Below, in pieces: positions 6,453-59,084 of a stretch of 64,000 nt of DNA. The first letter of the stretch is position 1; every line of letters begins with the position of its first letter. A program made the translations under genes and the position numbers. The DNA comes from Lachnospiraceae bacterium (GTDB taxonomy: Bacteria; Bacillota; Clostridia; Lachnospirales; Lachnospiraceae), in NCBI GenBank assembly GCA_022510615.1, contig JAFLTC010000011.1, positions 1-64,000 on the forward strand, given 5' to 3'. The notes under the pieces are model-generated. The model was not told the origin of the DNA and searched no databases. It worked only from the letters and a program-made list of their open reading frames with translations.

Positions 6453-7802
6453 GTGAAACAGAAACAATACCGAATGCTTGCCTGTCTGTTTATTGTTATG
6501 TTAGCTTTTAGCAGTATAACCACCGGGTATTCAGTGAACACACCGACGGTGCAGGCGGCGATAGTGACAAAATATTATATTTATCTGGATGATCAGGAAT
6601 TTGAAGTGACGAGGGAGCAATATGCCACCCTGTATGAAATTCAGAACGACCAAACAGCTCTTACCGCCTATTTAAGAGAAATTCTGGGAGATAAAATGCC
6701 GGAGAATTTCCAGAATATATCCGGGCGGGTTGTTTCAACAAATGTTGGCTATCGGCCTGAAATTGATGATTTTGTCATATCAGATGGGGAGTTAGTCCGT
6801 TACGTAGGAACGTCGGCAATTGTTACTGTACCTTCTACGGTGACCGCTATCCGTGCAGGGGCGTTTTACGGAAATTCCAAGGTAAAAGCAGTGATTTTGC
6901 CGGGAACAGTAAAAAAGGTTGAAAACTATGCCTTTTATAACTGTAGCACATTAAAATATGTTGTATTTACGGCAAATGCTACCATCCTTGGAAATGACAT
7001 CATGTACCAATGTAACAAATTGACAAATCTGGTGGCACCGAAAGGTTCGAAGGCTTATTCCTATGCAGAGAAAAAAGAAATTCCTGTGACCACCAGCCAG
7101 AAGACGCAGTTTCTCAATAAGAATATGTATCTTTTGCCCGGGGATTCCGATAAAAATACTATTTTGAATACGATATATGGGGCAAAGTGGAAGAGCAGCA
7201 AAAAGAAAATTGTTTCTGTCTCATCGTCGGGAACAGTCAAGGCAAAAAAAGTGGGAAAAGCGACGATTACTGCCACGGTAAACGGAAAAAAGATAACTTA
7301 TAAAGTGACAGTTTTGAAAAAGACGATGAAGCAGAGGGTAAACCAGATTGTAAAATCCGTGGTAAAAAAAGGAATGTCAAATTACCAGAAGGTGAAAGCC
7401 GTTCATAACTGGCTGATAAAAAATGTGAAGTATGATTATTATCGTTTTTTGTCCGGACGTGTTCCAAAGATATCCCATACCGCCAGAGGGGCTCTGCTAA
7501 AAAAGCTAGCGGTCTGTGACGGCTATGCCCATGCCTTTGACATGGTCATGAAAAAGCTGAAAATCAAAAGTAAATTTGTAGTAGGCTTTGCCAATGGAGG
7601 AGGTCACGCATGGAATATGGTAAAACTGGGAGGAAAATGGTATCATATTGATACGACCTTTGATGACCCGATTATCGATAAGAGCAATAAAAATACAACG
7701 CCGTTTTACACGTATTTTCTCAAGTCCTCTTCCGTGATGCAAAAAGACCATAGCTGGAAAAAGAGTAAATATCCAAAGTGTACGAGTACGAAGTATAATT
7801 GA
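6453..7802 (+). CDS. Secreted protein with BspA-like leucine-rich repeat, Ig-like and transglutaminase-like domains
   Basis: A signal peptide (hydrophobic LACLFIVMLAFSS, cleavage probably after VQAA) indicates export. The order is: N-terminal unknown region; two or three BspA-type leucine-rich repeat units (AGAFYGNSKVKAVILPG, NYAFYNCSTLKYVVF) at about residues 125-210; a bacterial Ig-like group 2 domain (GTVKAKKVGKATITATV) at about 245-290; and a C-terminal transglutaminase-like domain. That domain has a plausible catalytic triad: Cys in VCDGYAHAF near residue 355, His in GHAWNMV near 385 and Asp in HIDTTFDDP near 400. It may crosslink or cleave surface peptides. The start is GTG at 6453 behind AAAGGAG; the ATG two bases earlier runs straight into a stop. 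Hairpin element A begins just after the stop codon. Confidence 0.85.
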   Translation: MKQKQYRMLACLFIVMLAFSSITTGYSVNTPTVQAAIVTKYYIYLDDQEFEVTREQYATLYEIQNDQTALTAYLREILGDKMPENFQNISGRVVSTNVGYRPEIDDFVISDGELVRYVGTSAIVTVPSTVTAIRAGAFYGNSKVKAVILPGTVKKVENYAFYNCSTLKYVVFTANATILGNDIMYQCNKLTNLVAPKGSKAYSYAEKKEIPVTTSQKTQFLNKNMYLLPGDSDKNTILNTIYGAKWKSSKKKIVSVSSSGTVKAKKVGKATITATVNGKKITYKVTVLKKTMKQRVNQIVKSVVKKGMSNYQKVKAVHNWLIKNVKYDYYRFLSGRVPKISHTARGALLKKLAVCDGYAHAFDMVMKKLKIKSKFVVGFANGGGHAWNMVKLGGKWYHIDTTFDDPIIDKSNKNTTPFYTYFLKSSSVMQKDHSWKKSKYPKCTSTKYN

Positions 7803-7808
7803 TGGTGT

Positions 7809-7934
7809 TGACACTTTTGATAGTATAAAGTTAACGAAAACATCCACTAATCGACTCGAGCAGAGGTAATGCTTCGCATTAAATGCTCTCGCTGATTAGT
7901 GGATGTTTTCCTGTCTTATACTGCCAAAGTGACA
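7809..7934 (+). repeat. Long-hairpin element, family 1, copy A
   Basis: An inverted repeat whose core stem (7836-7852 with 7894-7910) pairs GAAAACATCCACTAATC with its exact complement. Outer arms (TGACACTTTTGATAGTATAA at 7809-7828; its near-complement ends at 7934) extend it to 126 bp. The apical part holds a symmetric internal loop (GACTC opposite TCGCT), stem GAGCA/TGCTC, a second internal loop, stem TAATGC/GCATTA and a TTC loop. The plus-strand orientation matches the gene ending 6 bp upstream. Terminator, 3' UTR structure and miniature mobile element are all possible. Weaker complementarity may continue into the end of the upstream CDS. Confidence 0.75.
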
Positions 7935-7971
7935 ACCATTATAGTGCTTCCAGAACGGTACACAAAACAGA

Positions 7972-8065
7972 GTTATAACAAGAAGATACCATCCAATCAG
8001 TGAGAACCTTTAACGCGGGAGCGTTACCGGTTCGAGTCAATTGGATGATATCTTCTTTCTTATAG
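7972..8065 (-). repeat. Long-hairpin element, family 1, copy B
   Basis: The core hairpin is 7983-8055 (GAAGATACCATCCAAT against ATTGGATGATATCTTC, one mismatch), with weaker outer pairing to 7972 and 8065. Read on the minus strand it has the same apical plan as copy A: GACTC loop, stem GAACC/GGTTC, GG opposite AA, stem TAACGC/GCGTTA. It lies 3' of the minus-strand tRNA-Leu gene, in the same orientation, so it could end or protect that transcript. Confidence 0.75.
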
Positions 8066-8084
8066 CCTGCTTCATATTTACCAC

Positions 8085-8168
8085 TGCGGATGGCGGGACT
8101 TGAACCCGCACGATGTTGCCACCGCAAGATTTTGAGTCTTGTGCGTCTGCCAATTCCGCCACATCCGC
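8085..8168 (-). tRNA. tRNA-Leu, anticodon CAA
   Basis: An 84-nt cloverleaf on the minus strand. The acceptor arm pairs GCGGATG with CATCCGC, with discriminator A. The anticodon stem CAAGA/TCTTG encloses the loop CTCAAAA, giving anticodon CAA (reads UUG). A long variable arm, expected for tRNA-Leu, is present, and the T arm contains GGTTCAAGTC. No CCA is encoded; it must be added after transcription. Hairpin B lies downstream. Confidence 0.95.
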
Positions 8169-8182
8169 TCACAACGGAGATT

Positions 8183-8211
8183 ATCATATCATTTTTTTTG
8201 ATTAGTGTCAA
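8183..8211 (-). promoter_or_regulatory. Promoter of tRNA-Leu
   Basis: On the minus strand: TTGACA (8206-8211), 17 bp spacer, TATGAT (8183-8188), ending 14 bp before the tRNA 5' end. Near consensus. Confidence 0.75.
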
Positions 8212-30623: not shown

Positions 30624-30995
30624 ATGAAACAGAATGGAAAAGTAAAAAAACTTGCATTTCTTTTTATCCTGTGCCTGTGTGTCGGTACCTTATCCGGCTG
30701 CGGTGACGGTATCAAAAAGGATACACAAAATCTTGTGACAGAAAAAACAAATCAGGCCTTGCAGTTGTATTCGGATATCGAAAAGCAGGTGAAGGAGCAT
30801 CAGCTTCAGGCGGACAAAGCCTTTATCGATATGAAAAAACAGCTGACAGACATGTCGGAAAAAATAAAGACAGGGATATCTGAAACAACAGAAGAGGACG
30901 GACAGCTGGCGTCACAGGAACTGGATAAAATTATTGAGAATTTGCAGAATGTGAAAGAGAAGGTGCAGAAGTCTATAGAGGCTGTTGCAGAGTGA
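30624..30995 (+). CDS. Small lipoprotein
   Basis: A 123-residue protein with a lipoprotein signal peptide (LAFLFILCLCVGTLSGC; lipobox LSGC, Cys 26). The mature part is almost entirely helical and charged, with heptad-like runs (IEKQVKEHQLQADKAFIDMKKQLT), so it is probably a coiled coil outside the membrane. I do not recognise a family. Hairpin element C follows 9 bp after the stop codon. Confidence 0.75.
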   Translation: MKQNGKVKKLAFLFILCLCVGTLSGCGDGIKKDTQNLVTEKTNQALQLYSDIEKQVKEHQLQADKAFIDMKKQLTDMSEKIKTGISETTEEDGQLASQELDKIIENLQNVKEKVQKSIEAVAE

Positions 30996-31004
30996 AATTG
31001 AAAG

Positions 31005-31085
31005 AAAGAGATACCATCCAATCGTCTCAAACCGGCAACGCTTCGCGTTAAAGGTTTTCGCTGATTGGATGGTATCTCTTTTTTT
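31005..31085 (+). terminator. Long-hairpin element, family 1, copy C, with T-run
   Basis: The stem AAAGAGATACCATCCAATC (31005-31023) pairs exactly with 31063-31081, followed by seven T (31079-31085), as in a rho-independent terminator. The apical part follows the family plan: stem AAACC/GGTTT, GG opposite AA, stem CAACGC/GCGTTA, loop TTC, TCGCT/GAT on the 3' side. It has the same orientation as the lipoprotein gene it follows. Confidence 0.8.
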
Positions 31086-31136
31086 GATTGTCTCCTGTAA
31101 CTCGCTGTCTAAACTGCGACACTCAAGTGGTTTTTC

Positions 31137-31165
31137 TTGCTATCTTCCAACATCTGGACTATAAT
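31137..31165 (+). promoter_or_regulatory. Promoter of the decayed regulator gene
   Basis: TTGCTA, 17 bp, TATAAT; about 27 bp before the TTG start of the pseudogene. Confidence 0.6.
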
Positions 31166-31191
31166 AGTATAAGATGGAAGGGGAGGATTAT

Positions 31192-31610
31192 TTGTTTCGT
31201 GTTGCTATATGCGATGATGATATGGAATTTTGTAAAAGCTTTCAATCTATGGTGGAAACCTGTTTGGAAGATTTGGACATACCTCATAAAATTATAGTGT
31301 ATCAAAGTACCCAAAATCTATATTATGATTTGGAGGAGGGAGTTATTTGAGACCTATCCCCTCAACTTTCTGATTAAGCCGATCGAAATAGAAAAGGTAA
31401 GAAGGGTAATCGATATAGCAGCCCGGCTAAAGGGCGAGTATAAAAGAATTTTCACCTACCGGTTTCTCTCTCAGGAATATCAGGTGGAGTGTGGGAAAAT
31501 TTCATATTTTCAGTCTGAAGGACGGAAAATTTGGTTTGATAATAATTGCAATAATTGGAGAAGTATACAAGTTGCATCACATTGGACCGCGTGTAGATTC
31601 TATCCAATCG
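31192..31610 (+). pseudogene. Decayed LytTR-type response regulator (AgrA/LytR-like)
   Basis: From TTG 31192 (behind GGGGAGG) the frame reads a receiver-domain start, FRVAICDDDMEFCKSF, for about 53 codons, ending at TGA 31348. Another frame, overlapping from about 31345, reads FETYPLNFLIKPIEIEKVRRVIDI, the end of a receiver domain with its conserved Lys, then the beginning of a LytTR DNA-binding domain (RIFTYRFLSQEYQVECGKISYFQSEGRKIWF), before it also breaks. The middle of the receiver domain, including the phospho-accepting Asp, is missing. The pattern is an internal deletion plus frameshift and 3' decay. No histidine kinase remains nearby. Confidence 0.8.
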
Positions 31611-31652
31611 GATAATGGTCACAAAATACACAATTATATTATAGTGGTCAAG

Positions 31653-31681
31653 TTGACACTGGGTTTTAGCGGCGTTAAGAT
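31653..31681 (+). promoter_or_regulatory. Candidate promoter for the orphan membrane protein gene
   Basis: TTGACA, 17 bp, TAAGAT, 86 bp before the ATG at 31768. Confidence 0.45.
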
Positions 31682-31767
31682 AAATGCAATAAGATAATAA
31701 TATTGTCCCATTGCCGTTTCTATTAGGATAGTTAGCATGATACCTATATTGTAGATGGAGGATAAAA

Positions 31768-32259
31768 ATGCAAAAGAAAAAAATTATAATAGTCATACTA
31801 TTCTTACTTGGTATTTTAATTATAATTACAGTGTTACTAATTCATCTCTATAATAAGCATATTAACAATGCGCTGGTACAAAAGGGGCAGGATAGTTTCC
31901 GTTATACTCATGAGGAACATTTTAAAGGGAATCGTTGGAACCTATATGTAAATGAAAAGTATACATATGCTATTACTCCTTGGCTTTCGAAAGAGGAAAT
32001 GAGAGCATATTTAAGCGATGTGAACTTAATCAAAACAATCTATGACGAAGGAAATGTTCGTGTATATAGTCTTCCACTGGGTGAATATCAAAGTCAATAT
32101 GATATAATTTATACAATAAATGGTGTAGATTTTTACTGTTGGGATAAAGATATTTTAAATATTGAAACTGACAATGAGGTAAAAAATCGGCTTACAGAAT
32201 TATATAAATATATCCCAGAAAGTGAACTGGCAAAACAACTTGGAGAAGGTTGGGAATAA
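31768..32259 (+). CDS. Hypothetical membrane-anchored protein
   Basis: A 163-residue protein. A lysine-rich start is followed by one hydrophobic helix (IIIVILFLLGILIIITVLLI), then a hydrophilic domain of about 130 residues with many aromatic residues (GNRWNLYVNEKYTYAITPWLS). No family recognised. The ribosome-binding site ATGGAGG lies 8 bp before the ATG. The gene and its surroundings are clearly more AT-rich than the flanking operons and sit between a pseudogene and hairpin element D, suggesting an acquired or decaying segment. Confidence 0.65.
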   Translation: MQKKKIIIVILFLLGILIIITVLLIHLYNKHINNALVQKGQDSFRYTHEEHFKGNRWNLYVNEKYTYAITPWLSKEEMRAYLSDVNLIKTIYDEGNVRVYSLPLGEYQSQYDIIYTINGVDFYCWDKDILNIETDNEVKNRLTELYKYIPESELAKQLGEGWE

Positions 32260-32332
32260 ACAATAAATACTTAAACGAAAAGCAGAAAAGGGAATCTATA
32301 TTCGGTAACGTTCTGCGGCATTTCGCAAAATT

Positions 32333-32488
32333 CTGTAACATATTGCTGGATGTCATTTTGGTGGGCCATAATTAAGGAAAATCCACGAATCAGCGGGAAC
32401 ATTTAATGCGAAGCATTACCCGTTCGAGTCGATTCGTGGATTTTCCTTAATTTTACTATCAAAAATGACAATCACAATATTGTTACAG
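32333..32488 (-). repeat. Long-hairpin element, family 1, copy D (longest arms)
   Basis: The core 32371-32391 pairs exactly with 32431-32451 (ATTAAGGAAAATCCACGAATC and complement). Outward from that the arms keep pairing imperfectly (TGTCATTTT at 32351 against AAAAATGACA ending 32470; CTGTAACA at 32333 against TGTTACAG ending 32488). The whole 156-bp element is a foldback with arms of about 58 bp. The minus-strand apical plan equals the other copies: GACTC loop, GAACG/TGTTC, GG/AA, TAATGC/GCATTA, TTC. It ends 1 bp from the stop codon of the minus-strand aldolase gene. Confidence 0.8.
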
Positions 32489-32489
32489 A

Positions 32490-33467
32490 TCAATCCTTAT
32501 CATTCAGCTCCAGATAAAAGTTCAAGAAATCCGTACGCCCTTCCTTCGTGGCGGCAATTGCCGTGCGGGGATGCTGGTTCGTCTGTCCCGTGAGAAGATA
32601 TGGAATATTATAACCCCATACAGTACCGGATTTCTTTAGAGGGATAATATGTTTTTCTAAAAATTTCAAAAGCGGAATTATATTGTATTTTGGGTTTTTC
32701 AGAAAACCAAGCAGCTGCTCTGTTGAGCAGTTTCCGGCACCACGTCCCATACCGTTTGCGGTGGCATCCAGATAGCTGACGCCCCGAGTCAGTGCTGCAA
32801 TCGTGTTGGCGAAAGCAAGCTGCTGATTATTATGAGCATGAATACCGACATATTTATCATATTTTTCTGCCATACCAAGATATTTATCCGCCAGTTCATC
32901 AATCTGCTCCATGTAAAGAGAACCATAGCTGTCAACAAGATAAACACCATCGGCATTGCTGTTTCCGATTAACTCCAGTGCCTCATCAATTTCTGATTCC
33001 TTGGCATTGGATATTGCCATAATGTTTATCGTTGCTTCATAGCCAAGTTCCTTACAGTATTCAACCATTTCAATGGCCGTTGGAATCGTATTGATATAAG
33101 TGGCAACACGCACCAAATCAATAACACTTTCAGATTTTGGTATAATATCATGTTTGTAATCACAACGTCCCACATCTGCCATAACTGCAATTTTCATATC
33201 AGTATCATTATTTCCGACAATGCTGCGAATCGAATCCTCGTCGCAGAACTTCCATGGACCAAACTCATTGACATCAAAAATATCTTTGGATGCCTTATAT
33301 CCAAACTCCATATAATCAATACCGGCCTTTACATTAGCCAGATATAAATCGCGAATAAATTCTTCTGTAAAACGAAAGTCATTGACTAGTCCTCCATCAC
33401 GAATTGTTGCATCGACCACTTTAATATCCGGCCGGAAAGTAAGAAGAGAACCTTTTTTCTTTTCCAT
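32490..33467 (-). CDS. DRE-TIM metallolyase-family aldolase
   Basis: A 325-residue TIM-barrel protein starting VVDATIRDGGLVNDF, a variant of the family DxTLRDG motif whose Asp binds the divalent metal; later GIHAHNNQQLAFANT supplies the metal-binding His pair (HxH). This places it among HMG-CoA lyase/4-hydroxy-2-oxovalerate aldolase relatives, usually annotated only as an aldolase-domain protein. The substrate is unknown; no dehydrogenase or acetaldehyde-processing partner is adjacent. Its ATG follows GGAGG at 13 bp, with a nearer AAAGG. It is transcribed away from purM, alone, with element D directly downstream. Confidence 0.82.
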   Translation of the reverse strand: MEKKKGSLLTFRPDIKVVDATIRDGGLVNDFRFTEEFIRDLYLANVKAGIDYMEFGYKASKDIFDVNEFGPWKFCDEDSIRSIVGNNDTDMKIAVMADVGRCDYKHDIIPKSESVIDLVRVATYINTIPTAIEMVEYCKELGYEATINIMAISNAKESEIDEALELIGNSNADGVYLVDSYGSLYMEQIDELADKYLGMAEKYDKYVGIHAHNNQQLAFANTIAALTRGVSYLDATANGMGRGAGNCSTEQLLGFLKNPKYNIIPLLKFLEKHIIPLKKSGTVWGYNIPYLLTGQTNQHPRTAIAATKEGRTDFLNFYLELNDKD

Positions 33468-52840: not shown

Positions 52841-52843
52841 CAC

Positions 52844-52881
52844 AGCACCATCGTGCTAGCACGATGGCGCCGTTATGCTAG
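52844..52881. repeat. Palindromic intergenic repeat, copy 5 (half copy joined to hybrid full copy)
   Basis: AGCACCATCGTGCT (52844-52857) runs into a second unit, GCACGATGGCGCCGTTATGC (52859-52878), which joins one half of the copy-2 type to one half of the copy-1 type. The terminal CTAG gives the TAG stop of the minus-strand SGNH gene (52878-52880). Confidence 0.8.
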
Positions 52882-58991: not shown

Positions 58992-59084
58992 CAAAAAAAG
59001 CGGGCATATTGCAGAACCGACTCCCAAAGCCAGACTAAAAATCTAACGATTGGAGGACGGTTTAGGCAGTATGTCCGCTCTTTT
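58992..59084. terminator. Bidirectional stem-loop between blaR1-like and pyrI genes
   Basis: AGCGGGCATATTGC (58999-59012) pairs with GCAGTATGTCCGCT (59066-59079) at 12 of 14 positions. An A-run lies on the left and CTCTTTT on the right. An inner helix pairs AACCG plus CTCC with GGAG plus CGGTT. It suits termination of both convergent genes, although the structure is larger than needed. Confidence 0.55.

Follow-up and report, generated by a model that had tools for sequence, protein, structure and literature searches.

Of the signs that an RNA structure is under selection, covariation between the two sides of a stem is commonly held to be the strongest. We describe here a dispersed family of long hairpins in the genome of a Lachnospiraceae bacterium (the host; assembly GCA_022510615.1), four of which lie in the window, the whole stretch of 64,000 nucleotides analysed (positions 1 to 64,000 of contig JAFLTC010000011.1). 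The closest described systems are bacterial MITEs that place stem-loops in mRNA, such as Correia, ERIC, RUP and SPRITE. The hairpins resemble these, as portrayed in the sections of the source cited here, in being short, dispersed, intergenic, non-coding and palindromic and in apparently sharing their ends with a larger element (PMC10969869), and terminator and RNase III roles are discussed in those sections for some MITE stem-loops (PMC10969869). However, on the same partial account, they differ in their free-sequence arms, their constant internal loops and the ability of the arms to mirror the ends of neighbouring genes. MITE-borne stem-loops are already known; new are the near-constant loops combined with free, self-matching arms able to reach coding ends.

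Insertion sequences of the IS1182 type, which are over-represented between convergent genes in the part of the source cited (PMC9208149), are linked to the hairpins by a terminal repeat common to an IS with PF13751 in genome G001 and a remnant in genome G028, whereas the hairpin copies here come without a transposase. REPINs are likewise dispersed hairpins with compensated variable stem parts, but in the excerpts of their description used here they have conserved ends, a variable centre and a link to a Y1 transposase (PMC3116915), while the present hairpins have a conserved centre and a host without Y1 matches. Intrinsic terminators share the position after a stop codon and the A-rich and T-rich arm bases, but the present stems are much longer, their internal loops are constant and the family is dispersed. 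Hairpins made by template switching, in which inverted copies create or re-match stems and loops are inverted, have been described, in the portion of the source cited, in rRNA and microRNA genes (PMC8794818), whereas the present family is a dispersed bacterial repeat. The reading to which we give slightly better than even confidence is that the host copies are MITE-like insertions of old date, maintained as terminators that work largely in both directions, with arms re-matched partly by template switching. The family shows how transposon ends may turn into terminators between convergent genes.

A dispersed family of structured hairpins

The hairpins of the window are as follows.

Hairpin A: 7809..7934, plus strand; core GACTC...TCGCT at 7853-7893; 7 nt past the stop of ORF 6453-7802 (transglutaminase-like).
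Hairpin B: 7972..8065, minus strand; core at 7999-8038; 3' of a tRNA-Leu (8085-8168, minus).
Hairpin C: 31005..31085, plus strand; core at 31024-31062; after ORF 30624-30995; a T-run closes the 3' arm.
Hairpin D: 32333..32488, minus strand; core at 32392-32430; after ORF 32490-33467 (minus, HMGL-like).

An earlier note on this DNA had described four elements of one plan at these places, and all four are there, A and C on the plus strand and B and D on the minus strand. The core pattern, allowing up to 2 mismatches, found 24 places in the host genome: 22 that fold on the plan, one that fails to, and a tRNA; those 22 (B and D among them) together with A and C make up the 24 rows of alignment A3, the source of covariance model R1. 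This model scores A at 81.9, B at 86.5, C at 95.1 and D at 96.9 bits, and only these four match in the window, the rest, their own reverse strands aside, reaching at most 16.6 bits. Against 200 shuffles each, the folding z-scores are -9.2 for A, -10.1 for B, -10.1 for C (folded as 31000-31085) and -9.4 for D (folded as 32340-32488).

The stem pairs hold as they had been written, and they covary. In A3, 95.1% of cells are paired, 25 of the 32 pairs have changed on both sides, and the covariation score reaches 0.502, a level attained by none of 500 shuffles (0.180); in A4, a wider alignment that takes 30 copies from ten genomes, the corresponding figures are 92.2%, 29 of 32, and 0.708 against 0.222 (0/500). 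The shuffles leave kinship in and so inflate the test, but slid structures, a control that retains kinship and is free of that fault, lower the paired share to 33-44% in A3 and 38-48% in A4. The internal loops proved nearly constant, but not in the exact 5x5 GACTC/TCGCT and GG/AA form proposed: GAGG rather than GG faces AA in A, TCACT occurs in B and GTCTC in C, and the '5x5 loop' contains a central pair that itself covaries (C-G in 17, U-A in 5 and other in 2 of 24 host copies). The outer stems do differ between copies; their arms are not unrelated, for the arm alignments listed show two related types, one around ACCATCCAATC and the other around ATCCACRAATC. What stands of the proposed 'selected structure' is a dispersed structured family with covarying stems; covariation alone does not prove selection here, given a probable mobile descent and, in several old copies, arms that mirror the sequence of their locus.

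The covariance model found further copies both in the host and in other genomes of its genus. In the host, where 150 of 710 candidates were scored, R1 gave 78 matches at E<=0.01, many of them both strands of one place, and at least 33 distinct strong places down to E=2.4e-8, the set used hereafter. Matches occur in 11 of the 39 genomes of the genus, counting the host, and copies are most numerous in G000 (the host), G015 and G028. Across the order, model R2 matched 3 of 392 genomes, all of this genus, in a scan of 12 candidates per genome in which the host itself gave only 12 and rare or diverged copies elsewhere could escape. The strict core pattern occurred in 2 contigs of a genome-contig collection that possibly omits records of, or very close to, the window's own genome, both from Lachnospiraceae MAG HAN042, one of the carrier genomes of the genus already counted; in viral contigs it had 0 matches.

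No named family had been known to the earlier note, and none emerged from Rfam at its gathering threshold, at which the window yielded only a tRNA and eight relatives' loci nothing beyond group II intron parts. Permissive scans of the hairpin stretches gave sub-threshold matches only, mostly to microRNA-type models of long hairpins, and Rfam membership was rejected, no match reaching the gathering threshold. Judged by titles and abstracts, with subscription papers mostly outside reach, no paper among those listed was recognisable as dealing with this hairpin family.

Some other features were seen alongside. The 3.3-kb host contig G000:C73 (locus L103) has 99-100% protein identity to G015 (L112, G015:C81), other shared loci having 48-86%; this near-identity points to either a recent transfer or a binning mix-up. 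Another hairpin of the window, at 58999-59079, is long, imperfectly paired and T-rich in its tail; it stands between convergent ORFs and R1 matches it weakly (16.5 bits). At 52841-52874 a near-perfect short hairpin, also between convergent ORFs, looks like a conventional terminator. Between C and D, 31190-31540 is a broken stretch that by eye we take to be response regulator-like with LytTR-like remains.

Terminal repeats and a probable mobile origin

Among 30 sequences compared from G028, 26 are near-identical copies in differing flanks with the left end GGGGCTGTCGCACTA or a near form, an end that one copy, L089, bears on the opposite side. The remaining sequences are 3 diverged copies and 1 truncated copy. 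A search of the loci already collected gave 12 IS-like units in which the right end GACAGCCCC follows the left one at a distance of 340-1068 bp; the two ends match and the hairpin sits just inside the left one. One G028 unit encloses a remnant of a PF13751 transposase, and in G001 an IS with PF13751 has the same right end as the G028 units. We take transposons with PF13751 (DDE_Tnp_1_6) to be of the IS1182 type. These shared ends, the PF13751 remnant and the right end of the G001 IS mark the G028 units as derivatives of the IS1182 type, with the hairpin immediately within their left end.

No complete transposon carrying the hairpin was found. The left end, sought elsewhere in G028 with up to 3 mismatches, led to no intact IS among the matches viewed (10 of 36, plus others), and PF13751 had 0 matches in the host and in G015. 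At the 12 units no clear direct repeat marking a target duplication was seen by eye, the flanks being A-rich on the left and often T-rich on the right. As in MITEs, short non-coding copies stand at multiple sites, 26 near-identical ones in G028 and at least 33 places in the host. In the context set of 82 copies (33 from G000, 33 from G015 and 16 from others), a variant of the left end is recognisable in 7 and the reversed motif in 0. Going by these sequence comparisons, the host copies likely descend from units like those of G028. A small mobile element, MITE-like and with DDE_Tnp_1_6 / IS1182-type ends, would carry the structured hairpin just inside its left end and land a few tens of bases past a stop codon; its host copies would then have diverged and been retained as putative terminators between convergent genes.

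Movement by a Y1 (RAYT) transposase, as for REP/REPIN-type elements, would also give dispersed hairpins, opposite pairs and compensated stems, all traits of REPINs in the sections of the source cited (PMC3116915). We regard such an origin as very improbable: PF01797, the Y1 transposase, is present in 10 of the 39 genus genomes but has 0 matches in the host (a genome 88% complete) despite at least 33 copies, the conserved centre and variable arms are the opposite of the REPIN arrangement, and convergent genes account for the opposite pairs. A RAYT/REP origin is disfavoured, the host being without Y1 matches. A mobile unit of two opposite hairpins ~200 bp apart was also considered and rejected, since each convergent gene has its own copy.

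Two further forms occur in G028. L178, near position 1500 (G028:C1:268193), consists of nothing but the two ends of the element in a short hairpin (GGGGCTGTCGCGCTAAGACAGCCCC, then TTTT), and resembles the same element stripped down to a terminator. In many copies, for example L086, L096 and L100, another repeat (GGAATCGCATAGCGCTGGTCTTAC...GTAAGACAAT) lies directly past the T-run, as if inserted there.

Gene context and a putative terminator role

In the same 82 copies, with genes called simply by longest ORF, the left gene shares the hairpin's strand at 66 of the 73 sites where it could be assigned, the right gene runs on the other strand at 59 of 74 such sites, and 46 copies lie between clearly convergent genes. 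The core is closer to its own gene at 44 of these 46 convergent sites, at a median of 48 nt from the stop as against 132 nt. The 5' arm is A-rich and the 3' arm T-rich: 70 of 82 copies have 6 or more T within 8 consecutive nucleotides of the 3' arm, compared with 22 of 81 controls taken from stretches 100 nt further out; A, B and D are without a clean T-run. A consensus terminator scan of 7700-8200 and 30900-32560, whose size limits on stem and loop exclude such hairpins, reported none of A to D.

At three G028 copies (L083, L090 and L176) a shared sequence starts directly after the T-run, and ~90 nt further in it matches the group II intron model RF02001, a match at the level of group II as a whole. 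Terminator stem-loops are recognised by group IIC introns, according to the part of the source cited (PMC7161350). Taken with position, polarity and base composition, this makes it probable that the copies have been kept to end transcription, largely in both directions and mostly where genes converge.

Proposed matching of the arms by selection and by copying

Mismatches within the stems were counted in 52 copies, 33 from G000 and 19 from G015. G-T outnumber A-C mismatches 28:12 in the first 20 nt and 65:44 in the next 25 nt, and stand at 73:74 further out; for the inner ~45 nt combined the ratio is 93:56 (p=0.003), and inner differs from outer (p=0.035). A G-T excess limited to the inner stem fits selection on the sense RNA for that stem alone, and such selection would keep the inner stem paired.

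A purely selected RNA motif, that is, a structure in the 3'-UTR whose constant loops are recognised by a protein or by RNase III and whose stems covary by selection only, would agree with the near-constant loops, the strong covariation in A3 and A4, the G-T excess in the inner stem and the fixed polarity relative to the gene. We nevertheless think it unlikely, for dispersed near-identical copies have transposon-like ends, the outer arms show no G-T excess, and pairing reaches into coding ends, which would serve no obvious purpose in an RNA motif. More than 45 nt from the core, the pairing is specific to each locus, with a mean score of 3.95 in 68 copies compared with 0.97 in 200 mispaired controls, and in 12 of the 68, D among them and A, B and C not, it exceeds all 200 controls.

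Some old copies have a 3' arm that mirrors nearby sequence outside the element, and in a few this arm holds an imperfect inverted copy, 19-54 nt long, of the coding end of the upstream gene.

L038: 33 nt, solute-binding protein.
L039: 19 nt, HAD-type hydrolase, P-type ATPase by eye.
L036: 44 nt, DUF4846.
L136: 54 nt, upstream ORF.

Scored against 684 controls, 6 of 57 copies lie above the 99th percentile and 10 of 57 above the 95th (Mann-Whitney p=0.012); in one of the six, G015_L080, the stop codon falls within the arm of the element itself, and this score gives no evidence of a copied gene end. The other 47 of the 57 do not pass the control 95th percentile for a gene-end mirror, and none of the copies surpasses the top control, 26.2, which was left in and pairs a gene with the flank of an inferred orthologous convergent locus. 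The window copies A to D have no significant gene-end mirror. At an ATPase-like locus that two species share, the arm matches the gene end of its own species (scores of 16.8 and 11.6) and not that of the orthologue (5.0 and 6.8). None of 12 recent G028 copies is mirrored above the control 95th percentile.

Inverted copies and loop inversions are described as products of template switching during replication in the portion of the source cited (PMC8794818), and the mirrored arms suggest copying by this route. The nascent strand would fold at the hairpin, copy the opposite arm and return, and such switching may re-match the arms and extend them outward into neighbouring sequence. Some selection on the near-constant internal loops must act too, as copying alone would erase them. 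The same point tells against neutral MITE remnants, in which hairpins inherited from insertion would be matched by inter-arm copying only and have no function: that account agrees with the mobile origin and the mirrored flanks, but leaves out the near-constancy of the loops, the confinement of the G-T excess to the inner stem, and the polarity and convergent position (the latter explicable by insertion preference), and we rate it as rather improbable.

With old, partly re-matched insertions kept as putative terminators as the favoured reading, covariation seems to be the work of selection and arm copying together. The family would then offer a natural example from bacteria, with young and old copies and tens of them in each genome, in which part of the covariation appears to result from copying arm to arm. 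More tentatively, and with real doubt, we suggest that the hairpin may rewrite its surroundings: its core would nucleate repeated snap-back copying and build from local DNA, at each copy, a private palindrome that extends into the end of the coding sequence of the terminated gene, so that a palindrome maintained by replication would be inherited more than its sequence, and covariation would arise partly without compensatory selection.

Two single copies touch on the same question. In L165 the left arm carries a base that mirrors the right arm of its siblings, in a truncated copy where a single substitution explains it equally. In L089, a recent G028 copy, the core is inverted between its arms, an inversion that fits template switching and that recombination between the arms can also produce.
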